IMG/VR virus record: IMGVR_UViG_3300045996_001150 | Span: 1 to 23,660 of that record | Reading direction: 5' to 3' (one strand) | DNA length: 23,660 nucleotides | DNA from: a virus | Shown here: one piece after another, positions 3-21,952 of the stretch | Position numbering within the stretch: position 1 is the first letter of the stretch | Layout: the number at the start of each line of letters is the position of its first letter | The notes under the pieces: model-generated | What the model was told of the DNA's origin: nothing | Databases searched by the model: none | Seen by the model: only the letters and a program-made list of their open reading frames with translations | Translations under genes and position numbers: made by a program

Positions 3-1055
3 AAAGGTTTCAGCTTCCATTGCATGACCGGCGAACCGGACGACAACGCCGGGACATGGTTCGGCCTGGTCACGGTCATTCGCGATCCGCAGCGGTGGGC
101 GAACAAGTGGGCAACGCAGATCATCGCGATTTTGAACACGACGGCGAAGGGCGGCATTATCGCCGAGAAGGACGCTTTCGACGATCCGCAGCAAGCCGAG
201 GAGAACTATGCGGCGCCCGATGCGATCACCTGGGCCGCACACGGGGCGCTCGCAAAGCAAAAGATCATCCCCAAGCCTGGCGCCGGCAACATCAACGGCC
301 TAGACGGTATGTTGCAGCTCGCCCTTGAGGAGATCCGGCAAGTCTCGGGCGTGAACATGGAAATTCTCGGCCTTCGCGACGCCAATCAACCCGGGGTGTT
401 GGAAGCGCAGCGCAAACAAGCCGCGATGACAATCCTCGCGACGCTGTTCGATAGCCTCCGGCGGATGCGCCGCTACATCGGTATCAACCGGCTGCACTAC
501 ATTCAAAACTTCCTTTCCGATGGGCGCCTGATCCCGATCATCGGGGAGGACGGGGCGAAGCGTTACATCGCGTTGCAAAAGCAGGCCGTCGCTGGTGACT
601 ATGACGTGATCGTCGAGGACGCCCCGACATCGCCAAACCAGAAGCAAGAGACATGGCAAATCATCATGCAGATGTTGCCGGCGATCCGCGACAAGCTCAC
701 GCCGCAAGTTCTGGTCCTGCTGCTCGAATATTCGCCGTTGCCGTCGAAGCTGGTCGACGCGCTCAAGCAGATGATCGAACAGCCGGACCCGAAAGCCGAG
801 CAACGCGCCGACATCGCCGACGCAACGGCGCTGGCGGAAGCCGAGAAGACGCGCGCCGGAGCGGCCAAGGACCGAGCGCAGGCGAACAAGACGAACCTCG
901 ACGGCATCCTTGAGCTGATTGGTGCCGCTGCAACGGGTGCCAGCCTTGCAGAAGCATCTCGGCTCTATAACGCGGTGCCTGGGCAGTCTAGATTGCCAGC
1001 GCCGGCCGGTCCCGATCTATCCGGCGGCGTCCCGGCGGGGGCGACGGTGAACTAG
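3..1055 (+). CDS. Portal protein, C-terminal part (P22-type), truncated by window edge
   Basis: The frame is open from base 3 with no stop before the first visible ATG at 24, so the gene begins upstream of the window; 350 codons are visible. The portal is the dodecameric ring at the DNA-packaging vertex that docks the terminase and later the tail adaptors. Supporting features are a QVSGVNMEILG segment followed by QPGVLEAQRKQAAM, which resembles the conserved core of P22-like portals, then a long helical stretch (LFDSLRRMRRYIGINRLHYIQ) and a charged Ala/Lys/Glu-rich helical tail ending in a low-complexity Pro/Gly segment, like the barrel end of P22 gp1. Its place upstream of scaffold and coat also fits, although a five-gene island now separates them. 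The last ~70 bases contain two copies of a motif related to the repeats downstream. The family is fairly certain; the missing N-terminus cannot be judged. Confidence 0.85.
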   Translation, partial: KGFSFHCMTGEPDDNAGTWFGLVTVIRDPQRWANKWATQIIAILNTTAKGGIIAEKDAFDDPQQAEENYAAPDAITWAAHGALAKQKIIPKPGAGNINGLDGMLQLALEEIRQVSGVNMEILGLRDANQPGVLEAQRKQAAMTILATLFDSLRRMRRYIGINRLHYIQNFLSDGRLIPIIGEDGAKRYIALQKQAVAGDYDVIVEDAPTSPNQKQETWQIIMQMLPAIRDKLTPQVLVLLLEYSPLPSKLVDALKQMIEQPDPKAEQRADIADATALAEAEKTRAGAAKDRAQANKTNLDGILELIGAAATGASLAEASRLYNAVPGQSRLPAPAGPDLSGGVPAGATVN

Positions 1056-1061
1056 CTGTGC

Positions 1062-1138
1062 ATCTAGATCAGATATAGATTGACAATCTCCGGCGAATAG
1101 GGCGCCTGATGGGGGTTGTTGATCTATATATCTAGATC
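1062..1138. repeat. AT-rich inverted repeat cluster upstream of parA (candidate centromere/operator)
   Basis: ATCTAGAT (1062-1069) and ATATAGAT (1073-1080) recur in inverted order as ATCTATAT (1122-1129) and ATCTAGAT (1130-1137); the left pair is separated by CAG, the right pair is adjoining. Related half-sites lie outside the core: TCTAGAT at 987-993 and GATCTAT at 1014-1020 in the portal 3' end, and ATCTAG at 1178-1183 in the parA 5' end. The block is markedly AT-rich against its surroundings. RHH partition proteins bind clustered short repeats upstream of their own operon, so a joint centromere/operator role is inferred. A TTGACA at 1080-1085 has no convincing -10 partner, so the promoter is not defined. 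Confidence 0.6.
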
Positions 1139-1156: not shown

Positions 1157-1822
1157 ATGCAGAAGCGAGCGCCAAAATCTAGGCCGTCGACTAAGGTCGT
1201 CGTGCTTGCGGCAACGAAGGGCGGCGTCGGCAAAACGACGCTCTCGGCCTGCCTGGCATGCTGGGCGGCAAAGCAGGGTCACAGGGTCGGCCTGATCGAC
1301 GCCGATCCGCAAGCCTCGCTCTCCCGCTGGGCACAGGTCCGGGGGAACAATGGGTTGGATCAGCCGGAGCTTTTGAACGTCGAGTGTGCGCCGGAAGCCC
1401 TGGGCCACGTTGCGGCGGAAGGGTATGACTGGCTATTCGTCGATACGCCTCCGGCCCTGGTCGACGACATTCAGAACGCCGTCGAGATCGCCGACTTTGT
1501 GCTCGTCCCGTCGAAAACCTCGATCGACGTCGAGGCGATGGATCAGATCGTCGAGATCATCGGCGAGGAAAGCAAGCCGTTCGCGTTCGTGTTGAACGAC
1601 GTCGAGGCGCGTTGGAAGCTCGACGCGGGCGCCGCGACGTATCTCGCCGAAGCCGGCCGCGTGCTCAAAGAAACCGTTGGCCATCGTCGGGCCTATGTGA
1701 CGGCCATGCTCGCCGGCAAAACCGGGCCGGAAGCCGAGCGCGACGGCAAGTGCGCCGAGGAAATTGCGGCGTTGTGGAAAGTCGTGCAACGGGCCGTTGC
1801 AAGCGCGAGGGCCAAGGCATGA
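1157..1822 (+). CDS. ParA-family partition ATPase (short, type Ib-like)
   Basis: The protein has 221 residues. It shows the deviant Walker A motif KGGVGKTT at residues 21-28, Walker A' LIDADPQ at 46-52 and Walker B LFVDTPP at 93-99, the signature of ParA/MinD-type ATPases. It starts directly with the ATPase fold and lacks the N-terminal helix-turn-helix of type Ia ParA, as expected for short type Ib ParAs that work with an RHH partner; such a partner follows with a 4-base ATGA overlap. ParA proteins bind nucleoid DNA when ATP-loaded and move cargo whose centromere-bound partner stimulates hydrolysis. The start at 1157 is supported by AGGGGA six bases upstream. VirC1-like or other ParA-type positioning proteins are alternatives. 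Its place between portal and scaffold is unusual, because partition genes are normally in plasmid or lysogeny modules. Confidence 0.9.
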   Translation: MQKRAPKSRPSTKVVVLAATKGGVGKTTLSACLACWAAKQGHRVGLIDADPQASLSRWAQVRGNNGLDQPELLNVECAPEALGHVAAEGYDWLFVDTPPALVDDIQNAVEIADFVLVPSKTSIDVEAMDQIVEIIGEESKPFAFVLNDVEARWKLDAGAATYLAEAGRVLKETVGHRRAYVTAMLAGKTGPEAERDGKCAEEIAALWKVVQRAVASARAKA

Positions 1823-2106
1823 CCGCAGACATCAGCGAGGACGAGGCAAGCAGCCTGTTCGATGCGCTGCGCAAGCGGCACGTTCGGACGGATGACAGGT
1901 CAATCTCAGGCCGTCGCGTTCGCGAGGCGCGGCCTATGAACCATCGACGGCGCGTCAAGAGTGACCGGACGGTACAAGTGAACCTCAAGTTTGAGCCGGC
2001 ATTCAAGAAGCTCATGCAGGCCGTCGCCGAGCAACGCAACGTCACCATGACGGAGCTGATCGAGCATGCGGTGAACGCCTACGTCAGCAACGGGGGCGCC
2101 GAATGA
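1819..2106 (+). CDS. Ribbon-helix-helix protein, ParG/ParB-like partner of ParA
   Basis: This 95-residue protein starts at the ATG overlapping the parA stop (ATGA) and itself overlaps the next gene the same way. Residues 51-95 fit an RHH fold: a strand TVQVNLKF (51-58), helix EPAFKKLMQAVAEQR (59-73), a turn NVTM and a second helix TELIEHAVNAYVSNG. Residues 1-50 form a polar tail that is strongly basic near RKRHVR and NHRRRVK, comparable to the flexible N-terminal tail of ParG-type proteins, which contacts ParA and carries an arginine that stimulates ATP hydrolysis. The role inferred is DNA binding at the repeats upstream of parA, acting both as autorepressor and as centromere adaptor. A plain transcriptional regulator or antitoxin-like RHH is possible, but no toxin gene is adjacent. 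Confidence 0.8.
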   Translation: MTADISEDEASSLFDALRKRHVRTDDRSISGRRVREARPMNHRRRVKSDRTVQVNLKFEPAFKKLMQAVAEQRNVTMTELIEHAVNAYVSNGGAE

Positions 2107-3176
2107 AGATCCTGATCGGCATCCTCGCCCTGATCGGCGGCGTCTACTTTGCCGGCGTCGAAGTGATCGGCGTGCACGAATACCTGATCGCCGAGCAAGG
2201 CGGCTGGACGTATGTCACGCTTGCCGGCGTCGGCCTCGCTGCGGTCGTTTCGCTGTTGCCGGCGTGCGCGTCGTTGGCGTGGAAGGGCCGGAAGCTCCTC
2301 GCCCTGGGCCTGTGGGCGTCGTTCTTTGTCGTGCTGGCGATCGTTATCATCTCCGGCCTGACGCGAACCGGATCGGCCGTTGACACGGCGCAAGCGAGCC
2401 GCGAGGACGCCGCATTGGCTCGTCGGCTGGCGTTGGCTGACGAAAAAGCGGCCCGCGCTCGCCTCGATACGGATCAGACGAACGTCGATCGGGAGTGCGC
2501 CAACGTCGCGAAGGACAAGAAGGGCAATCCCGTAGGCTCGGCGATTGGCCCGAAGTGCCTCGCCGCGTCGGAAGCTCGGAATGCGTCGCAAGTCGTGCTC
2601 GACAAGGCCGTCGCCGCGCTCCGGGGCACGAAAGGCGCAACCGTCGACAGTCTCGCAAGCCGTATCGCTGCGACGGGCTACATCACCGAAGCGCAATTCC
2701 GCACGATCTGGCCGTTGACGATCCCCGTCACGACGTCGCTCGTTTCGGCGCTGCTGATCTCGCTGGCGGTGTGGCTGCTGGGCGGTGAGGCTAAACCGGC
2801 CACAACTGCAAAAACTGCCGAAACTGTTGCGAAGCCGGTCGAAGTCGTTCAACCCGAACCGCTCCCGACGCCCTCGACGTCAGTCGCACACATGAACGTT
2901 GTCCCGATGAAGCGGCCGGCACCAAAGAAGCAAAAGGCGATACCGCGCCAGCCGGCGGCATCGCTGATAAAGTTCGTTCATACCTGCACAGCGAACGCGG
3001 ACGGGTCCAAGGTCGATCTCGAAGACTTGTTCAAGGCATATCGCGACTTCTGCGCTCGCGAGGACATGACGCCGCTCGATCCGAATTCGTTCGTCGACGA
3101 CATGCGACGGCTTTGCAACGCAATGGGCGCTGTGATCGAGGGCGGCGACGTGCTCGACATGGCTCTGACGGCATAG
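2103..3176 (+). CDS. Multi-pass membrane protein with possible winged-helix C-terminal domain
   Basis: This 357-residue protein overlaps the RHH gene by ATGA. Hydrophobic stretches are visible at about residues 3-20, 36-55 and 66-84, and a fourth near 199-222 (WPLTIPVTTSLVSALLISLAV). Between the third and fourth lies a charged helical segment with two cysteines (residues about 85-195). After the last membrane span come a Pro/Ala/Lys-rich linker and a compact domain (about 285-357) with the pattern DLFKAYRDFC...PLDPNSFVDDM, which recalls the winged-helix module at the C-terminus of D5-type viral primases. That resemblance is by eye only. If correct, the protein would tether DNA or a protein partner to the inner membrane. 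Coupling to parA and the RHH gene suggests a shared process, for example membrane positioning of the phage genome. No named family was recognised. Confidence 0.6.
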   Translation: MKILIGILALIGGVYFAGVEVIGVHEYLIAEQGGWTYVTLAGVGLAAVVSLLPACASLAWKGRKLLALGLWASFFVVLAIVIISGLTRTGSAVDTAQASREDAALARRLALADEKAARARLDTDQTNVDRECANVAKDKKGNPVGSAIGPKCLAASEARNASQVVLDKAVAALRGTKGATVDSLASRIAATGYITEAQFRTIWPLTIPVTTSLVSALLISLAVWLLGGEAKPATTAKTAETVAKPVEVVQPEPLPTPSTSVAHMNVVPMKRPAPKKQKAIPRQPAASLIKFVHTCTANADGSKVDLEDLFKAYRDFCAREDMTPLDPNSFVDDMRRLCNAMGAVIEGGDVLDMALTA

Positions 3177-3187
3177 GGGGGGGGGAT

Positions 3188-3403
3188 ATGAGCGAGGAGA
3201 AATTCTTTCGGGCTCTGGTGCTCCAAGCTCTTTGGCTGTTGCTTCTCTGCGCATTCGGCGGCCGACCGAGAGTGCAGGCCGCAGTGTTGCGCGGCGAGAT
3301 GATCCGCTTCTTTGACGATCACGGGAACCAATTGGACGGCGCCCGCGAGTATCGCCGCCAAGAGACATTTCCCGAATTGCCAATAGACACGAGGACGCAA
3401 TGA
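3188..3403 (+). CDS. Small membrane-anchored or secreted hypothetical protein
   Basis: The protein has 71 residues. The start at 3188 was chosen because a run of ten G residues (3176-3185) directly precedes it and can act as a Shine-Dalgarno element; the longer upstream frame would overlap the previous gene. The N-terminus has a short charged head (MSEEKFFR) followed by a hydrophobic stretch ALVLQALWLLLLCAFGG, which could be an uncleaved anchor, a signal peptide (a cleavage after VQA is possible) or a single membrane span. The remainder is short and charged. It overlaps the next gene by ATGA, so it belongs to the parA operon. Function unknown; it could assist the preceding membrane protein. 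Confidence 0.55.
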   Translation: MSEEKFFRALVLQALWLLLLCAFGGRPRVQAAVLRGEMIRFFDDHGNQLDGAREYRRQETFPELPIDTRTQ

Positions 3404-3675
3404 AACTCGATCTAACGCTCGACGCCGTGCTCGCAGCACGCAAGATCATCACCGACAAGCTCACAATCGCCATCAATCAGCCAACCGGCATTGATGAGGG
3501 CCGGTATGCGAACCTGCTCGCCGACGTGAAGGCGTTGGACGAGATCGCGGCGCCGCTGATCGAGGCGAAGGAAACTACGGAGCGCAAGGCGCGCAACCTT
3601 GCCCGCATCGCGGAAGATCGCGAGGCGTTGCGCGAGAAGCTGTCGGGCGTCACGCCGGAGATACTCGGCGCCTAG
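3400..3675 (+). CDS. Small helical hypothetical protein
   Basis: The product is 91 residues long and overlaps the previous gene by ATGA. The sequence is Ala/Leu/Glu/Lys-rich and almost entirely helix-forming, with heptad-like spacing in the second half (EIAAPLIEAKETTERKARNLARIAEDREALREKL), so a coiled coil is likely. There is no signal peptide, membrane span or cysteine. It is the last gene of the parA operon, and a strong hairpin begins 9 bases after its stop. Its function is not recognised; a structural adaptor or small regulator fits equally. Confidence 0.6.
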   Translation: MKLDLTLDAVLAARKIITDKLTIAINQPTGIDEGRYANLLADVKALDEIAAPLIEAKETTERKARNLARIAEDREALREKLSGVTPEILGA

Positions 3676-3683
3676 AAACTGCG

Positions 3684-3714
3684 AAGGCCCCGAGGGCTGC
3701 AACCCTGGGGCCTT
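3684..3714 (+). terminator. Hairpin terminator closing the parA island
   Basis: AAGGCCCC (3684-3691) pairs with GGGGCCTT (3707-3714) and AGGG (3693-3696) with CCCT (3703-3706), giving a 12-bp stem with one bulged G at 3692 and a six-base loop. No proper T tract follows (only CTGATG), so termination may be partial or Rho-assisted. It separates the cargo operon from the scaffold/coat genes. Confidence 0.7.
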
Positions 3715-3753
3715 CTGATGATGCCTAGACCTTGGTCCCGGATCTTGGCGGCG

Positions 3754-3769
3754 GAGCTGCTTACAGCTC
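3754..3769 (+). promoter_or_regulatory. Small hairpin in scaffold leader
   Basis: GAGCTG (3754-3759) pairs with CAGCTC (3764-3769) across the tetraloop CTTA. It lies in the 193-base gene-free stretch before the scaffold gene and directly upstream of the leader element shared with the coat gene. An RNA role in the leader (stability or translation) is inferred; the stem is short. Confidence 0.35.
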
Positions 3770-3772
3770 GAC

Positions 3773-3790
3773 GCTTGTCGCCGTGAAATG
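3773..3790 (+). repeat. Leader element, copy A (upstream of scaffold gene)
   Basis: GCTTGTCGCCGTGAAATG matches GCTTGGTCGCCGTAAAATG at 5040-5058 with one gap and one substitution. Both copies lie in the leaders of the two most strongly needed head genes. Each ends in ATG opening a tiny frame (here MADLGR then stop). Whether it is a promoter part, a protein-binding site or an RNA element cannot be told by eye. Within the rest of this leader there is also a 9-base direct repeat GCTGATTTG (3791-3799 and 3808-3816). Confidence 0.45.
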
Positions 3791-3868
3791 GCTGATTTGG
3801 GCCGGTAGCTGATTTGCCGATCCCCTTCAAGCTGTTTCGCGGCTCGCATGCCAAATAGGGGACGCTAG

Positions 3869-4957
3869 ATGGATACCGATACAACTCAGACGGCCGATCA
3901 GGGCTCGTCCGACTTCACTCCCGCAGAAATGGCTTTCATCAACTCGCAGGGCTCCGATCCTGCGGCGGCTGATGCCCTCGCCAAAGAGTACAGCGGGGGT
4001 AGTAGCCAGAACGACGCGACCGGCCTAGAAACGCAAAAAACAGGCTCTAGCGTCGAAAACGCCGATTTGCCGCCGAATGACCCGGCCGAAGGGCAGCTAA
4101 TCGACACGGAGTTTCTACAACTCGACGCCAACGGGCAGGTTCGGGACAAGCGCACGAATAAGTGGGTGTCGCACCAGGCTTTGCACCGCGAGCGCATTCG
4201 GCGGCAGGAAGCGCAGACCGAAGCGCAGACGCTTCGCGAAAGGCTCGCAGCCAAAGACGAGCGCTCGGCGATCCTCGATCAGTTCTTGAAGCCGGAAGAC
4301 AAGGACGGCGGCGACAAGAAAGCCGACGCGCCGAAAAACCCGTTCGAGGAAGCGACGATTGATCCGACCGTCGACTACATCGGCGCGTTGAAGCAGACGG
4401 CGCGCCGGCAAGAGTGGCAACATCAGCAGGCGCAAGAGCGCGCGCAGGCCGACGCGAAGCGAAACGAAGTCCAGACGTTCCGCTCGCAGTTTGAAAGCGA
4501 CGTCGCGGCTTACGGCAAAACGACACCCGACTTCGGCGCCGCGCTCGATCATCTGTCGTCGACCTTGGCAAAGACGGCGGCGCGTCGCGGCGTTGCTGCC
4601 GACAAGGTGCAAGCGACAGTGACGGCGATGCTGGTCGACATTGCTCGCGAAGCGCAAGGCGCGAAGAAAGGCATGGCCGAAACGCTGTACGGGCTCGCCG
4701 AGGATTTGGGCTATGTGAAGAAAGCCGCAGATCCGAAGGACGATCCGAAAAAGCAAGCCGAGGAAGCGATCGAGAAGATTGCAAAGGTGCAAGAGGCGTC
4801 GCGTTCGATCACCGGCAAGGGCAGCGCTGCGCAGAGTGACGGCTTGCCGAGCGTCGACGAATTTATCAATATGCCCACCGAAGACGCATTGAAGTTCGAG
4901 CGGGATTTAGGTCCGAACAAGTTTCGAGCTTGGATGAAGTCGCGAGGGCAAGCGTAG
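3869..4957 (+). CDS. Scaffolding protein (probable)
   Basis: The product has 362 residues and starts at 3869 with AGGGGA (3857-3862) six bases upstream. It is polar and mostly helical: an acidic, low-complexity N-terminal third rich in D, E, S, T and Q, then long Glu/Gln/Lys/Arg/Ala helices (QTEAQTLRERLAAKDER, RRQEWQHQQAQERAQADAKR) and a charged C-terminal end. This composition, the size and the position directly before the major capsid gene match podovirus scaffolding proteins, which fill the procapsid interior, guide coat assembly and leave before DNA packaging. P22 gp8 ends in a basic coat-binding helix-turn-helix; here the last residues (NKFRAWMKSRGQA) are basic and may play that role. 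Family membership is based on context and composition, because scaffolds diverge quickly. Confidence 0.75.
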   Translation: MDTDTTQTADQGSSDFTPAEMAFINSQGSDPAAADALAKEYSGGSSQNDATGLETQKTGSSVENADLPPNDPAEGQLIDTEFLQLDANGQVRDKRTNKWVSHQALHRERIRRQEAQTEAQTLRERLAAKDERSAILDQFLKPEDKDGGDKKADAPKNPFEEATIDPTVDYIGALKQTARRQEWQHQQAQERAQADAKRNEVQTFRSQFESDVAAYGKTTPDFGAALDHLSSTLAKTAARRGVAADKVQATVTAMLVDIAREAQGAKKGMAETLYGLAEDLGYVKKAADPKDDPKKQAEEAIEKIAKVQEASRSITGKGSAAQSDGLPSVDEFINMPTEDALKFERDLGPNKFRAWMKSRGQA

Positions 4958-5193: not shown

Positions 5194-6267
5194 ATGGCAG
5201 AGAACTCATTTGGCGTGAACGACGCGAACGCCGTAAAACTTTGGCAGAAGCGTCTCGAAGTCGCCGAGCGTGACAGCACCGACATTGCGCCGCTGATGGG
5301 CACAAGCCCTGACAGCATCATTCACATCAAAGAGGAAACGACGAAAGGCCCCGGCGATCGGGTGCGCTTCTCGCTGCGTCCTCGTCTGTCCGGCGCCGGC
5401 AAGACTGAGAGCGACGTCGCCGAGGGGCAGGGCGAAGGCTTGTCGATCTATTACGACGACGTGACGATCAATGAGCTGTTCCACATCGTCGCCGCGAAGT
5501 CCGAGAACACGATCGACCATCAGCGCGTGCCGTGGGATCTTCGCGAGGAATGCCGTGGCGCGCTCGGCGATTGGTGGGCCGACCGCAACTCCGCAGCATT
5601 TTTTAACCAGGTGTGCGGCAACACGGCCCAAGTCGACATCAAGTACACCGGCATGATCGCGACAACGGCTCCGTCGTCTGATCGCATCCTTCGCGCTGGC
5701 GCGCAGGCAAACGATCAATCGCTGACGAGCAGCCACCCGTTCGTGCTCGGGCTGATCGACAGCGCCGTCGAGAAGGCATCGGTCGGAAACAACAAGATCC
5801 GCCCGCTCCGCATCGGCGGCAAGCTGAAATATGTCATGTACCTCCATCCGTATCAGGTGACGTCCCTGCGGACGAACACCGCAACGGGTCAGTGGCTCGA
5901 CATTCAGAAGGCGGCAATGGCCGGCTCTGATAGCTCCAAGTCGCCGATCTATACGGGCGCGCTCGGCGAGTACAACGGCGTAATCTTGCGCGTGTCGCAG
6001 GACATTCCGCTTGGTTGCAACTCGTCGACGCCGACGACTGCCGTCGCCAATACGCGGCGCGCGGTGCTGCTCGGCGCACAGGCTGCGGCGGTTGCCTACG
6101 GGAAGAAGCACGGCCCCAGCAAATACCGCTGGAACGAGGAATTGCTTGACCACAAGCGCAAGCTCGAAGTCGGCGCCTTCTGCATCATGGGCATGAAGAA
6201 GACGGTGTTTAACAGCTCCGACTTCGGCGCGCTCGTCGTGTCCACCTACGCCGCTGCCGCTGCGTAA
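5194..6267 (+). CDS. Major capsid protein, N4-gp56-like family
   Basis: The protein has 357 residues and is preceded by GAGG eight bases before the ATG. Its pattern fits the N4-gp56 coat family (HK97-fold shells): an N-terminal segment with LWQKRLEVAERDSTDIAPLMG, an early strand-rich part ending at DDVTINELFHIVAAKSENTIDHQRVPWDLREECRGALGDWWADR (long helix of the P-domain type), the central YVMYLHPYQVTSLR segment that is typical of this family, and a C-terminal KRKLEVGAFCIMGMKKTVFNSSDFGALVV. The product forms the icosahedral shell. Its location after the scaffold and the long structured leader imply high expression. Pairing with a P22-type portal shows a mosaic head module. Confidence in the coat assignment is high. 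Confidence 0.88.
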   Translation: MAENSFGVNDANAVKLWQKRLEVAERDSTDIAPLMGTSPDSIIHIKEETTKGPGDRVRFSLRPRLSGAGKTESDVAEGQGEGLSIYYDDVTINELFHIVAAKSENTIDHQRVPWDLREECRGALGDWWADRNSAAFFNQVCGNTAQVDIKYTGMIATTAPSSDRILRAGAQANDQSLTSSHPFVLGLIDSAVEKASVGNNKIRPLRIGGKLKYVMYLHPYQVTSLRTNTATGQWLDIQKAAMAGSDSSKSPIYTGALGEYNGVILRVSQDIPLGCNSSTPTTAVANTRRAVLLGAQAAAVAYGKKHGPSKYRWNEELLDHKRKLEVGAFCIMGMKKTVFNSSDFGALVVSTYAAAAA

Positions 6268-6770: not shown

Positions 6771-8150
6771 ATGCCAAAGCATCACCACTATCAGGGCGGC
6801 GAAGCTGCGCGCGATTTCAATACGCAAGCTCTGCCCTATCACGTCATGATCGCAACGCCGACGTCGCGCGGCCTGTGCGTGCCCTATGTGATGGGCATCG
6901 TCGCGACCATCGAGACGCTGATCCGCTTCGGCGTGAAAACCGACTTCCATCTTCTCGCGGACGATTGCCACGTCGACGACGCGCGCAACAAGATTTTCCG
7001 CGAATTTCTGACGACGCCTTGCACCGATCTTCTGTTCATCGATAGCGATATGGGCTGGCGGCCCCAAGATGTGCTGCGGCTGCTCTCAGCGCCCGGCGAC
7101 ATCGTTGCCGGCATCTATCGCCACAAGAACGAGGTCGAGACGTATCCTTTCCATCCCGGCAGCAACACCGGCCCGCGCACCGCGAACGAACACGGCCTGT
7201 TTGAAATGCCGAAGGTGCCCACGGGCTTTATGCGAATTCGGCGTGAGGTCATCGAAGCCCTGCACAAGTGGGAAGTCGATAAAGGCCGCGTCTTTTGGGA
7301 CAGTCCCGAGGACGAGGCGACGGGCAAGATCCCGATCGCGGCGATCTGCGAGCGCGCCTTCGCCTCTGAAATGAAACTGTCGATCGAGGTCGGCGATCAC
7401 AGCAACCGGCATTCCGGCGATCTCGTGCTGTGCCTGAAAGCGCGCCATCTCGGCTTCAAATGCTTTGCCGATCTCGAAATGCAGTTCGATCACGTCGGCG
7501 AACAGGCTTGGACAGGCAATCTCGGCAACTTCCTGCGCCGGCAGCAGGGCTTGCAAAATCCCGGCTTCTGCGAGGCCGTCGACATGATCCGCGCCGGCAA
7601 AACCGGCCCCTCGACGTTCCGCAAGCTGTTTGAAGCCTTCGGCGTGACCGAATGGCCCATGATGCCGGAAGGGCTGCACGAGCTGTTTCACGAGGTCAAG
7701 AACGGCTCCGGCGACGTTCTCGAAACCGGATCGGGCCTGTCGACGCTGGTTATCAGCCTTGCCCTGGAAGGCACGTCGCGCAAGCTGCATGCGCTCGAAC
7801 ACGACGTTCTCTATTGGCAGCAAACCGGGCAATGGCTGCAACGTTACGATCTGACGTCCAACGTCGTGTTGCACCTGGCGCCGCTCATGCCCCAAGGCGG
7901 TTGCATCTGGTACGACATCGGGCCTCGCGATCTGCCAGAGCATTTCGGCGTCGCCCTGATCGACGGGCCTCCGCACAAGTACGGCCGCGACGGCGTGTTC
8001 CACATTCTCGGCGACGCCTTGGCCAGCGCAACGATGATCCTCGACGACGCGGCGCGCGAGCGGTTCGAGATCGACACACACGACATTGAAATGCGCGTGT
8101 GCAATCGGACGTATGCCGTCGCGCGTCCGAAGCTGGCGAGGGCGGCATGA
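6771..8150 (+). CDS. Glycosyltransferase (GT-A-like) fused to SAM-dependent methyltransferase-like domain
   Basis: The product has 459 residues in two parts. Residues about 24-260 look like a GT-A glycosyltransferase: a VMIATPTSRG start strand, LLFIDSDMGW with a DXD-type metal site (D91-S-D93), and FADLEMQFDHVG (232-243) with a His at the place of the usual late metal ligand. Residues about 300-459 look like a class I methyltransferase: DVLETGSGLST (316-325) as the SAM-binding loop, the acidic ALEHD (341-345) after the second strand, ALIDGPP (395-401) and MILDDA (422-427). It would transfer a sugar, and perhaps methylate it or another target. The position between head-protein and adaptor genes suggests virion-protein modification; modification of host surface or small molecules is an alternative. 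The acceptor is unknown. A hairpin covers its ribosome-binding site. Confidence 0.75.
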   Translation: MPKHHHYQGGEAARDFNTQALPYHVMIATPTSRGLCVPYVMGIVATIETLIRFGVKTDFHLLADDCHVDDARNKIFREFLTTPCTDLLFIDSDMGWRPQDVLRLLSAPGDIVAGIYRHKNEVETYPFHPGSNTGPRTANEHGLFEMPKVPTGFMRIRREVIEALHKWEVDKGRVFWDSPEDEATGKIPIAAICERAFASEMKLSIEVGDHSNRHSGDLVLCLKARHLGFKCFADLEMQFDHVGEQAWTGNLGNFLRRQQGLQNPGFCEAVDMIRAGKTGPSTFRKLFEAFGVTEWPMMPEGLHELFHEVKNGSGDVLETGSGLSTLVISLALEGTSRKLHALEHDVLYWQQTGQWLQRYDLTSNVVLHLAPLMPQGGCIWYDIGPRDLPEHFGVALIDGPPHKYGRDGVFHILGDALASATMILDDAARERFEIDTHDIEMRVCNRTYAVARPKLARAA

Positions 8151-16577: not shown

Positions 16578-17389
16578 CCGACGTCCTCGATCAAATGCTG
16601 CGCGAGATCGAGCAACCGACCGTTAAGCGGCGCGGCTTCCTCGTTCCTCGTGACGAGATGAGCGACGGCACGACGCAATGGGCATGGCCTAGCGCGGTGG
16701 CCGATCCATACGAGGCCGTGCAGCGCATTTTGCGCGGTGAACTTCCCGTGATGCACCCGGACGAGATGACAAACGCAGACGCGGCGGAAAGGCTCGGCGC
16801 GGGCCTGACGGCGGCTTCACTTCCGATGGGCGGGAGCGCGGCCATTGCGCGCCCGGCCGCATCTCTCGGCGCTGGCGGCGTTCTTCCACGCGAGGTCATA
16901 AGCTGGCTGCAACGCGCGGGCGTGCCGATTGAGAAAATTCAGACGGCTTCGACGGGCAGCACATACGTTCATGCGCGCGATCCGAACGCAGCCAAGGGCG
17001 CGCCCGGAAGCCGCGTCGAGGTTCGCATTCCTCCCGAGGATGGCCACGGTGGGCGCATCCTGCCCAAAGACGTCAAACCGGGGAACTACTTCGACACGAC
17101 GCCGGAAGCTCCTCGGAAGCAATTCGATCGCATCATGTCGCCGCGCGTCAACCAGGGCGGCGAACAGTACAGCGACCGTGAAGCGCTGTTCGATGCGCTC
17201 AAGTGGCGCTTTCAGCGAAGCCCGGACGGTCAGCCTCTCGTCTCGCCGGATAGGGCGCCGCGCGGTCTGACGCCGGAGCCGGCAGCCAAGCCCTTGCCGG
17301 AGTTGTCGCCGGATCAATTGAAGCTCTTGGCGACTGCGGAGCCGGCGCAGCTCGTCGAAATTCTGCGGCAGATCCTGGGGGATGACTGA
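16574..17389 (+). CDS. Hypothetical virion protein of ejection cluster
   Basis: The product has 271 residues, coupled to the large ejection gene by ATGA and to the next gene by TGATG. The N-terminal part (MTDVLDQMLREIEQPTVKRRGFLVPRDEM) looks like a targeting or interaction segment. A Gly/Ala-rich stretch at about 77-103 (RLGAGLTAASLPMGGSAAIARPAASLGAGG) resembles the membrane-active part of the preceding large protein. A compact charged domain follows (RVEVRIPPEDGHGGRILPKDV...YFDTTPEAPRKQF), then a Pro-rich tail. No family was recognised. Since it lies between an ejection protein and a peptidoglycan hydrolase-like gene, a role in DNA ejection or as minor virion component is the best inference. 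Confidence 0.5.
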   Translation: MTDVLDQMLREIEQPTVKRRGFLVPRDEMSDGTTQWAWPSAVADPYEAVQRILRGELPVMHPDEMTNADAAERLGAGLTAASLPMGGSAAIARPAASLGAGGVLPREVISWLQRAGVPIEKIQTASTGSTYVHARDPNAAKGAPGSRVEVRIPPEDGHGGRILPKDVKPGNYFDTTPEAPRKQFDRIMSPRVNQGGEQYSDREALFDALKWRFQRSPDGQPLVSPDRAPRGLTPEPAAKPLPELSPDQLKLLATAEPAQLVEILRQILGDD

Positions 17390-18105
17390 TGGCCGATCCC
17401 GCATCAATTCGCTATGGCAACCCCGGCGCAATGTATCCCGGCCCCTCTGCGCGGCGCTTCGGCTCGACTGGCCATGAGGTCATCGGCGGCGGACACAAAA
17501 TCGCGGTCTTTCCCGATGCGGAGAGCGGCGCGGCGGCGCAATTCGATCTCTTGAGCCGCAACTATGCCGGCCTCCCGCTTCGCGACGCTATTGCCAAGTG
17601 GAGCGGCGGCAATGCCTCGGGCGCCTATGCCGACTTCATCGCCAAGAACACCGGCCTTTCACCAGACACGGTTCTCACGCGAGAAATATTGCAGGACCCA
17701 CGTCTGGCCGTCCCTCTGGTCCGATCTATGGCTCAATGGGAAGCCGGTCGCGTCTATCCGCTCGACGATGCCGGCTGGAATTCTGCCCATTCTCGCGCCT
17801 TCGGTCCTGGGCAGCAACAATTGGCCGCTGGCGGCGGTTCTCTCGACCCGGCGTCTTCCCCTGCGCCGGCCCCGGATCGCCAGCCAGCGGCCAACCCTGG
17901 CGATCTGCAAGCCTATGCGAAACGGTTACTCGCGGAAGCCGATCAGAAGGCCGGCGCACAGCCGCAGTCGCAGCAACAACCTAACGACGACGAGCGGGCG
18001 GTCCTCGGCCTGGTCATGGCCAACGATGGCACCGGCCCCGAAAGTCCGTTCATTCGACCCTCTCGGAAGCGTATCGCGTCCGTGCTCAAAGCGAGGATGC
18101 TATGA
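17389..18105 (+). CDS. Virion-associated peptidoglycan hydrolase-like protein
   Basis: The product has 238 residues; its ATG overlaps the previous stop (TGATG). Residues about 5-125 carry the pattern IRYGNPGAMYPG...KIAVFPDAESGAAAQFDLL...YAGLPLRDAIAKWSGGN...YADFIAKNTGLSPDT. This arrangement (Asn-Pro-Gly start, FPD/S-x-xGxxA helix, AI-x-KWSGGN) is familiar from phage structural proteins annotated as lytic transglycosylase-like or peptidoglycan-digesting. A catalytic Glu is possible at ESG (about residue 45) but not proven by eye. The C-terminal half is Pro/Gln/Ala-rich linker plus a basic end. It may open the cell wall locally at DNA entry. No signal peptide, so it is not a lysis enzyme but likely packaged in the virion. 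Confidence 0.6.
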   Translation: MADPASIRYGNPGAMYPGPSARRFGSTGHEVIGGGHKIAVFPDAESGAAAQFDLLSRNYAGLPLRDAIAKWSGGNASGAYADFIAKNTGLSPDTVLTREILQDPRLAVPLVRSMAQWEAGRVYPLDDAGWNSAHSRAFGPGQQQLAAGGGSLDPASSPAPAPDRQPAANPGDLQAYAKRLLAEADQKAGAQPQSQQQPNDDERAVLGLVMANDGTGPESPFIRPSRKRIASVLKARML

Positions 18106-19331: not shown

Positions 19332-20120
19332 ATGAAGATTTCCGACAACGGCATTCGTCTCGTTAAGGGCTTCGAGGGGTATCACCGACGCCTGCCAAAC
19401 GGTGACTGCACAACCTATTACTGTCCGGCCGATGTTCTAACCATCGGATACGGCTGCACCGAAGGCATCAAAGAAGGCGACGTGTGGACCGAGGCGCAAG
19501 CCACGGAAGCCCTGATGCGCGAGCTGGCGAAGCACGAGGCAGCCGTTACACGCCTCGTGACGGTCGAGATCAATCAGCACCAATTCGATGCGCTTGTCAG
19601 CTTCTCGTACAACTGCGGCTCGGGCGCGCTGGCAAAGTCGACACTCCTCCAGCGGGTAAACGCTAAGGACTTCGACGGCGCGGCGAAGGCGTTCGCGGCT
19701 TGGAATAAGGGCGGCGGTCGCGTTCTGCCCGGCCTCGTCTCTCGGCGCTCGCGCGAGGCCGCGTTGTTTCAGAAGCCAGCAACGACGGTGACAAAGGCGC
19801 CGGAGCCGACAATGCCGCAGACGGTAGACACTCCGAGCGAAGGGCCTAGCGGCTCTCGCAAGGAAAAAACGTCAAAGATGGGGATGGGCATTGCTGCGTT
19901 TTTCTATGCGTTGTTCGTCGCCATCAAAGCAAAGATCGAGGGCCTGATAAGCGATCCGTTCGGCGCGCTCGAAACGGCGCACAGCTTCATCTCGGAATAC
20001 GGATGGGAGTTTGCAATGGTTTCTGCGGCTGTTGGCTTCGCCGCGTTCAAGATCATCAGCGCGCTAAACCATCAGGACTACGAGGAAGGGCGCTATACGC
20101 CAAGCGGGGGTGCAGCATGA
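19332..20120 (+). CDS. Endolysin, GH24 lysozyme with C-terminal membrane segments
   Basis: The product has 262 residues, with AGGGGG just before the start region. Residues 1-150 are a GH24 muramidase: catalytic Glu in KGFEG (E15), YYCPADVLTIGYG with C31 and T37 at the other active-site positions, and the helical core NQHQFDALVSFSYNCGSGALAKSTLLQRVN...WNKGGGRVLPGLVSRRSREAALF. An insert (about RLPNGDCTTYY) between E15 and the CPA motif is longer than usual. A linker rich in P, T and S follows, then two hydrophobic segments at about 187-200 and 228-245. These C-terminal segments are unusual for a plain GH24 enzyme and may anchor it in the inner membrane or give holin-like activity. No N-terminal SAR or signal sequence is visible, so export probably relies on a holin. 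Confidence 0.88.
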   Translation: MKISDNGIRLVKGFEGYHRRLPNGDCTTYYCPADVLTIGYGCTEGIKEGDVWTEAQATEALMRELAKHEAAVTRLVTVEINQHQFDALVSFSYNCGSGALAKSTLLQRVNAKDFDGAAKAFAAWNKGGGRVLPGLVSRRSREAALFQKPATTVTKAPEPTMPQTVDTPSEGPSGSRKEKTSKMGMGIAAFFYALFVAIKAKIEGLISDPFGALETAHSFISEYGWEFAMVSAAVGFAAFKIISALNHQDYEEGRYTPSGGAA

Positions 20121-21051: not shown

Positions 21052-21311
21052 CGTTCTCCCCCGATTTTCAGAATTGCATAGTAGACGTGAATTGCGAAAG
21101 CCTTCTCGGCGGTCCCGAACGCGAGCATAAAGGCGAGGATCGCGAACGCGTGCGACGCGATGTTGAAGACGTGGGCGGCCGGCTCCGGTGTCACCCTGGC
21201 CAGCCAGTAGCAGACGACGGCGCCGGCCACGCGCAACAGAACGAGCGTAATCGTAATCGGCGCCGGCACGAACCGAAGGGCAACGCGCTTTGTCCAACCG
21301 GGACGGAGCAC
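21015..21311 (-). CDS. Small multi-pass membrane protein coupled to resolvase
   Basis: The product has 98 residues and starts at a GTG that overlaps the resolvase stop codon by one base (TAGTG), so translation is coupled. Two or three hydrophobic stretches are present: APITITLVLLRVAGAVVCYWLA (about 17-38), FNIASHAFAILAFMLAF (about 49-65) and a weaker third near AFAIHVYYAILK. The N-terminus is basic (inside by the positive-inside rule). No family was recognised. Linkage to a recombinase is unusual; the gene might be a separate accessory function (membrane protection or exclusion) carried in the same transcript. Confidence 0.55.
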   Translation of the reverse strand: MLRPGWTKRVALRFVPAPITITLVLLRVAGAVVCYWLARVTPEPAAHVFNIASHAFAILAFMLAFGTAEKAFAIHVYYAILKIGGERWSTPANKSPAE

Positions 21312-21859
21312 TATGCGAGCCTCCCGATTACCTTGTGCGATACGCCGAACGTTTTCCCGACTTGCCGGTGCGACTGCCCGGCCGCGATCATCTTCCGGGC
21401 CTCGGCCTGCTGGTGCGCGTCCAGCTTCGGCCGGCGGCCGAATTTGACGCCACGGGCTAAGGCATACGCCATGCCCTGCTTGCCGCGCCTGACGATCCTC
21501 TGACGCTCGTCCTCGGCCATTGCGGAGAGCAGGGCCATGATCCCGCGGCCGATCGGCGTCGTCAGATCGAGATAGGCCCGATCAAGCACCTTCACCATAG
21601 CGCCGCGATCGGCGATACGTTCAAGGATCTTGAGGCCGTCATTCATCGATCGCGTTGCGCGGTCCCACTCGGCGACGATCAGCAAGTCGCCCTTGCCGAG
21701 CGCATCGATCGCCTTCGCGAGCTGCGGCCGGTTCGCGGTGTCCTTGCCTGATGCCTTCTCGGCGAAGATCCGATCGCATTTCTCGCCCTTGAGGGCGCCG
21801 ATCTGACGATCGAGGTTCTGTTCGATCGTCGACACTCGGGCGTAGCCTATGCGCTTCAT
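21311..21859 (-). CDS. Serine recombinase, resolvase/invertase family
   Basis: The product has 182 residues from the ATG at 21859, chosen because GGGGGATCAG precedes it and the family starts with MKRIGYARVS; a frame extending to 21907 would add 16 unlikely residues. It shows the catalytic serine in YARVST (S10), the KASGKD segment (about 35-40), the WDRATRS motif (variant of the LDRLGRS active-site arginines), the long E-helix region (GRGIMALLSAMAEDERQRIV) and a C-terminal HTH (AAGQSHRQVGKTFGVSHKVIGRL). It is thus a complete small resolvase/invertase. It makes site-specific double-strand breaks with 2-bp overhangs at paired sites. Probable roles are resolution of genome multimers or inversion; no invertible fibre segment is visible. 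An inverted repeat lies 35-93 bases upstream of its start. Confidence 0.9.
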   Translation of the reverse strand: MKRIGYARVSTIEQNLDRQIGALKGEKCDRIFAEKASGKDTANRPQLAKAIDALGKGDLLIVAEWDRATRSMNDGLKILERIADRGAMVKVLDRAYLDLTTPIGRGIMALLSAMAEDERQRIVRRGKQGMAYALARGVKFGRRPKLDAHQQAEARKMIAAGQSHRQVGKTFGVSHKVIGRLA

Positions 21860-21893
21860 CTGATCCCCCGAAATTGAGCTCGAATGCGTCCCG

Positions 21894-21952
21894 CCTTTAC
21901 GTCCCACAACAAAGCCTTGATTTTCGGGCGTTCGTCAACGTGGGACGAAAGG
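21894..21952. repeat. Inverted repeat upstream of resolvase (candidate res site/operator)
   Basis: CCTTTACGTCCCAC (21894-21907) is repeated inverted as GTGGGACGAAAGG (21940-21952): CGTCCCAC/GTGGGACG are perfect, and CCTTT/AAAGG match after one skipped A at 21899. A related half-site GCGTCCCGC occurs at 21887-21895. Small serine resolvases act at sites just upstream of their own gene built from such inverted subsites, so a crossover site or autoregulatory operator is likely. There is no gene in 21860-21981. Confidence 0.5.

Follow-up and report, generated by a model that had tools for sequence, protein, structure and literature searches.

A ParA-RHH partition-like cassette with an added membrane-protein gene between the portal and scaffold-like genes of a phage with a P22-like portal

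Cluster A mycobacteriophages carry parABS cassettes that replace the integrase, and their prophages are extrachromosomal, according to the available portions of two reports (PMC7157519, PMC3585329). LadyBird and RedRock are temperate members whose parABS loci include parS repeats (PMC7157519, same portion), and in LadyBird a short ParA overlaps a small "Arc-like repressor" protein. Among plasmid systems, available excerpts place the TP228 ParF-ParG-parH operator upstream of the genes and describe autorepression of its operon as normal for ParG (PMC7308502); they also state that pSM19035 needs four or more contiguous repeats (PMC9499535). Plasmids of Xanthomonas citri and Halomonas (loci L078 and L079) carry a ParA gene with a small gene directly after it; the L078 pair adjoins a replication initiator, and the L079 pair is near a relaxase. 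Phage genomes with ParA and a small partner are represented by plasmid prophages such as phiHAP-1, D6 and examples from the Bacillus cereus group, for which the accessible part of one study reports ParA-Ib plus RHH in group 5 (PMC8026635); in phiHAP-1, a protelomerase and RepA lie near ParA. Among the titles and opening abstract lines covered by the literature searches, none names a ParA cassette among phage structural genes.

The locus described here does lie among such genes. The window, by which we mean the full 23,660-base IMG/VR record IMGVR_UViG_3300045996_001150 (positions 1-23,660, classed linear), contains a 5′-cut P22-like portal gene, a scaffold-like gene, an N4-gp56-type capsid gene, further plus-strand ORFs and a lysozyme gene at 19332-20120. 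It belongs to a phage group with P22-type portals and N4-gp56-type capsids, and a Rhizobium phage is among the nearest named relatives of that group. Portal and capsid identities are firm. The scaffold-like gene is putative, assigned from its position and its similarity to the portal-capsid gene of relatives; it has no Pfam match and a weak minor-tail PHROG match (E 0.0014). Between the portal stop (1055) and this gene lie ParA, an RHH gene, a membrane-protein gene, two small ORFs and a hairpin:

3-1055, plus strand: P22-like portal protein gene, its 5′ part cut by the window edge (PF16510, E 2.5e-54; phrog_156, E 8.2e-55)
1062-1137, plus strand: candidate operator/centromere-like region directly after the portal stop, with four ATCTAGAT-type 8-mers in two pairs that form the arms of a long hairpin
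1080-1085, plus strand: TTGACA, possible -35 element
1157-1822 (ATG at 1157, stop at 1822), plus strand: ParA ATPase of type Ib size, 221 aa (phrog_164, NF041546 and solved ParA/ParF matches)
1819-2106, plus strand: probable RHH DNA-binding partner with a ParB/ParG-like role, 95 aa, with an arginine-rich N-terminal tail (model, fold matches and profile search)
2103-3176, plus strand: third module gene, 357 aa, several predicted membrane spans (hydropathy; homologue in L314)
3188-3403, plus strand: small ORF encoding 71 aa with a single predicted membrane span; unmatched in the searched loci
3400-3675, plus strand: small ORF encoding 91 aa; unmatched in the searched loci
3683-3715, plus strand: strong GC-rich hairpin 3′ of the cassette, no T-run (-26.1 kcal/mol, z -4.6)
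3869-4957, plus strand: putative scaffold gene
5194-6267, plus strand: major capsid protein gene (PF13252, E 3.4e-84; TIGR04387)
21311-21907, minus strand: small serine recombinase (resolvase/invertase), possible multimer resolution (PF00239, E 9.4e-32)

The initial annotation had described an intact short ParA gene overlapping by ATGA a 95-residue RHH gene, between the portal and scaffold genes, and had read them as a type Ib partition-like pair. The pair is confirmed at this place, with both genes and their overlap as described, and sequence, fold, gene order and the repeats upstream all support the type Ib reading. Our verdict is that the system is of a familiar type, located at an unusual place and extended by a membrane gene. 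The likeness to LadyBird extends to the small protein, since the window RHH protein also matches an "Arc-like repressor" family, phrog_582; whereas the cluster A parABS sits centrally, at the integrase place, the module of the window and of its relative L085 lies between portal and scaffold, and the membrane gene that follows in the window has no annotated counterpart after the LadyBird parABS. The module resembles TP228 in the full-length match of its ParA to solved ParA/ParF structures, in an RHH protein with an N-terminal tail that aligns to ParG, and in upstream operator-like repeats, and differs from it in lacking a Pfam ParG match, in its repeat unit and in the extra membrane gene. Its repeats form two separated pairs, unlike the contiguous repeats required in pSM19035 (PMC9499535, excerpt). 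The Xanthomonas and Halomonas pairs, whose small genes are found by our RHH profile, are on plasmids, unlike the window; the L078 ParA is 41% identical to the window ParA. Of the protelomerase and RepA of phiHAP-1, neither was seen in the window.

All three ParA motifs, KGGVGKTT, LIDADPQ and FVDTPP, are intact; we take them to be Walker A with the signature lysine, A′ and B, respectively. At 221 aa and with KGGVGKTT near its N terminus, the protein has the type Ib features of a deviant Walker A and no N-terminal DNA-binding domain. It matches phrog_164, "ParA-like partition protein", at E 2.8e-37, and NCBIfam NF041546 (ParA_partition) at E 5.2e-43, where its 147 bits fall below the curated cut-off of 180 and so outside equivalog membership; its best solved relatives over the full length are ParA 5u1g and ParF 4dzz. 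In a tree of 55 rows, from which L314 was left out, the window and L085 proteins form one clade (SH-aLRT 99). Named phages with related ParA proteins include phiHAP-1 and D6, and also a Schitoviridae record (Ab2712) and the 309-kb Tunturi_5, which are among phages for which we found no plasmid-prophage report. Pattern scans built from a single protein, for ParA and for the third protein, returned no viral relative, their one genome match being L076, a short piece of ParA; the ParA scan from a pair alignment returned L085 alone.

The RHH gene follows ParA directly, as in type Ib systems. Family matches of its product are weak (Antitox_RHH, E 0.008, under its cut-off; phrog_582, E 2.3e-5), and no match to Pfam ParG (PF09274) appeared up to E 0.1; that model matched 4 of 42 ParA partners. 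The AlphaFold model has block means above 90 for residues 51-90, and VIA-align places CopG, Arc and AmrZ among the first structures at Z ~6 and ParG at Z 5.1, with an rmsd of 8.6 over 68 residues. The support for an RHH fold is fair, not proof, because none of the 122 Foldseek matches reached E 0.001; a three-row RHH profile found no PDB match by sequence. Residues 1-49 contain 13 K/R and 9 D/E, and the tail pattern RRxREARxM, a candidate arginine-finger-like motif, recurs in L085 and in part (RGAREM) in L314. When a profile of the window and L314 proteins was run on the 38,786 ORFs of 317 overlapping loci, its hits at E 0.01 or better were the two RHH genes of L085 (RHH E 1.3e-11, with L085 left out of the profile) and ORFs of L079, L096, L090 and L149, these last four each adjoining ParA; including L085 added L078 and L077, both beside ParA. 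Weaker rows of the two-protein profile (E 0.02 to 0.2) include one L084 RHH ORF that is not downstream of ParA. Because the set of 317 loci is enriched for ParA, which was the reason for retrieving many of them, this result is support and not a clean test.

Short repeats lie upstream of ParA in the window, L085 and L314, with an HNH gene intervening in L314. In the window, ATCTAGAT with at most one mismatch occurs at 1062, 1073, 1122 and 1130 and elsewhere only at 986 and 21566. The region they occupy has a GC content of 46.5% versus 61.7% and an RNA fold of -36.4 kcal/mol (z -6.5), and all four imperfect arm positions of its hairpin are G-U pairs on the plus strand, which hints at selection on RNA or an RNA role. 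Its inverted-repeat score is not outstanding, being equaled by 36 of 943 tiles, and by RNA energy it comes 84th among 4716 tiles. L085 also has a hairpin after the portal stop (z -7.2). In shuffle tests, ATCTAGA x4 in the window (two palindromic sites, both strands) was reached in 4 of 1000, six CTAG in 189 bp of L085, mostly as CTAGGCA, in 0 of 1000, and GGTAGC x8 in L314 (2784-2952) in 1 of 1000, whereas two exact copies of the 8-mer in the window were reached in 309 of 1000 and are not unusual; these numbers are descriptive because the motifs were chosen after viewing the sequence. In L085 and L314, too, a TTGACA occurs within or next to the repeats, and a scan of the window found no full sigma-70 promoter. 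The 3′ hairpin at 3683-3715, which lies outside the initial annotation's finding, was absent from the one L085 stretch tested at the matching place.

The third gene, likewise absent from that finding, overlaps the RHH gene by ATGA. Its homologue in L314 was found by phmmer (E 9.9e-26 among 38,786 ORFs) and by BLASTP (E 1.9e-30 among 30 window proteins), and its C-terminal domain is weakly like primase tails (phrog_6088, E 0.0011 on residues 285-339). The third protein of L085 resembles that of the window in place, length (335 versus 357 aa) and hydropathy; BLASTP between them gave E 2.6, it was missing from the matches of a window-plus-L314 profile down to E 10, and the hhalign probability was 12.6 over 41 columns. 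These comparisons do not show homology of the L085 protein; earlier profile scores for it came from profiles of which it was itself a member. Neither phages nor plasmids gave a tblastn match to the third proteins, and the structure model is poor (pLDDT 51). An ORF annotated as a small terminase subunit (L005, 606-1214) weakly resembles the C-terminal domain, at E 0.003 with the two-row profile and at 0.2-0.3 in a later run.

The initial annotation proposed looking for the pair at the portal-scaffold junctions of relatives, and envisaged that it might be absent from all of them and decay there. The search found ParA-RHH at the same junction in L085, and the pair is present in L314 too. In L085, the gene order is terminase, portal, ParA, RHH, second RHH, third gene, scaffold and capsid; its ParA, with intact Walker motifs, is 52% identical to that of the window, its portal 51% and its capsid 62%. 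The second RHH gene (6897-7109) encodes a tail-less protein and could be a duplicate or an operator-only regulator. A ParA scan of 221 loci, fetched through portal or capsid searches, gave one match, L181, which derives from the L085 contig; 51 loci scanned earlier had yielded no match. The 144 rows with usable portal and capsid reduce to 95 that are distinct by capsid core, window included, and L181 alone among the other 94 has ParA between portal and capsid, leaving 93 of 94 with no detected ParA there. In the 15 loci listed for cassette-free relatives, the junction gaps measure 0-157 bp and together contain a single CTAG, and an insertion scar was rejected on these figures. As to one capture of the cassette or two, the window and L181 are not sisters in the 95-row trees; with 20 rows, the portal tree pairs them at weak support (47/36), and the pairing is not rejected by the capsid (p-AU 0.217). 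Among 80 viral ParA loci, a plus-strand ParA was called in 70 and an upstream gene in 63, of which 54 were scanned, nine near-duplicate or short loci being left out; the upstream gene was a portal once, that of L085 itself, among the 25 of 76 families listed. A head-gene position of viral ParA is rare in this sample, within the same 25 of 76 families. The initial annotation's view that phage partition genes lie outside the head operon fits what was seen, with the window and L085 as the exceptions.

The module has also been found elsewhere in a genome. A ParA search of 40 chosen group records of at least 30 kb and of the L085 record gave strong matches in G068, G072 and G001 plus two marginal ones; ten further group records searched later gave none. 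L314 is a stretch of G068, a record of 42,066 bases and of unknown completeness, and has ParA, RHH and third genes in the window's order. Judged by sequence comparison, all three are homologous to those of the window (ParA, 44% identity; RHH, BLASTP E 5e-4). They are located among early genes, near repressor-like, replication-initiation and Erf-like genes, and the portal and scaffold genes of G068 (locus L016) are adjacent, 17 bases apart. Because the L314 set lies away from head genes, the module can move and does not need the head-operon position. Directly upstream of the G068 ParA, an HNH endonuclease gene (L314, 2945-3454) has its start overlapping the repeat array, a possible homing insertion; the Walker A of that ParA (3458-4099) reads KGGVSKTT, departing from KGGVGKTT. 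Another record of the same capsid group, G072, has a different, more distant ParA with a small RHH-like neighbor (L315, 3309-4239; E 0.055 to the profile), and no third module gene was found there.

Such a module could serve a prophage that replicates as a plasmid, and the group's lysogeny genes bear on this. No PF00589 tyrosine integrase was found in the window (23.7 kb) or in the L085 record, which means little because both records are short; the window, a fragment, showed no lysogeny gene and, in an unsystematic search, no plasmid replicon. Because 31 of 50 group records have a tyrosine integrase (25 of 40, 24 of them over the cut-off, and 6 of 10), integration is common in the group, and because 17 of 49 viral ParA records have one, ParA and integrase can coexist. 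G068 has one small resolvase and G072 a resolvase, and neither has a PF00589 match; the link between ParA and lack of an integrase rests on these two records, approximately full length, with a chance of 0.14. A temperate state is supported for the L085 phage by a CI-like repressor (HTH_3 over the cut-off, S24 just under) and for the group by its tyrosine integrases, and the L085 and L314 records both contain phage replication-initiation matches. Small serine recombinases occur in 13 of 40 relatives, 11 of these 13 having no strong ParA match; because they are this common, the resolvase is not specific to ParA, and the one at 21311-21907 was rejected as a sign of a plasmid state.

We posit that the module probably serves to maintain an extrachromosomal (plasmid) prophage, as a type Ib partition cassette to which a membrane protein has been added. 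This reading is favored because a relative that gave no tyrosine integrase match, G068, has the homologous ParA-RHH-membrane set away from its head operon. The homologous set elsewhere in that genome suggests that these viruses can persist in their hosts as plasmids. In the proposed mechanism, 1157-3176 would constitute one operon, with upstream repeats, of a phage with temperate relatives. By analogy with the available accounts of ParF-ParG (PMC7308502) and pSM19035 (PMC9499535), the RHH protein would bind and coat the repeats, repress the operon and load ParA, and its arginine-rich tail would trigger ATP hydrolysis by ParA. ParA would then carry copies of the prophage across the nucleoid, leaving each daughter cell with one, and the phage would be maintained as a low-copy plasmid, either in place of integration or in addition to it. 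Anchoring or timing of the partition complex may be the task of the membrane protein. It is quite unlikely that the three components work as a relay, in which RHH-bound DNA would be passed between nucleoid-bound ParA and the membrane-anchored protein, whose cytoplasmic C-terminal domain would bind DNA or the RHH complex, thereby tethering plasmid prophage copies or replicating genomes.

The initial annotation had offered two explanations, (i) a plasmid prophage and (ii) use of ParA during infection to position the genome, procapsid or packaging complex; the first is favored by our results, whereas the second is weakened by the movable location seen in L314. ParA/MinD ATPases can position cargo encoded nearby, and two phages share the portal-scaffold location, as would be expected if ParA acted with the RHH or membrane protein on a replicating genome, procapsid or packaging complex. 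That the homologous L314 set is away from head genes, that all but one of the other distinct portal-plus-capsid loci have no detected ParA at this place, and that the partner and repeats are those of DNA partition make such a role very unlikely. The same two genomic places, together with patchy presence among relatives, hairpins on both sides of the window cassette and a membrane protein as the third gene, are compatible with lysogenic cargo, a moron that would confer incompatibility with related plasmids or prophages or whose membrane protein would exclude superinfecting phage. We consider this unlikely: complete ParA, RHH and repeats exceed the needs of a decoy, no full promoter came out of the scan, and the 3′ hairpin has no equivalent in the L085 stretch tested.

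Finally, the RHH protein could mainly regulate neighboring genes, with ParA as a passenger or as a regulator of RHH. Its matches to Arc-like repressors and the operator-like place of the repeats and hairpin fit such a role, but autorepression is normal for the partition protein ParG (PMC7308502, excerpt), the ParA motifs are intact in the window and L085, and both genes stay together in three phages; we regard this as highly improbable. That one module occupies two genomic positions shows that an unusual location is not in itself a sign of unusual function. With this module, the range of phage partition cassettes comes to include a little-known phage group, and the plasmid-prophage reading predicts that some of its members live as plasmids, which chromosome-based prophage searches would miss. 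The membrane partner offers a practical way to ask whether membrane tethering of type Ib partition is possible.

Several observations concern the remainder of the head region and the record. In five relatives (L027, L029, L041, L050 and L045), up to ~5 kb of extra ORF-bearing DNA lies between the scaffold and capsid genes, marking a possible cargo hot spot. After the capsid genes of the window, 6771-8150 encodes a 459-aa protein of phrog_1574 (unknown function), with no Pfam match. When the record is divided into 80-nt tiles, the strongest local RNA fold is at 17821-17900, inside the ORF at 17389-18105, with energies of -50.5 kcal/mol on the plus strand and -48.2 on the minus strand.
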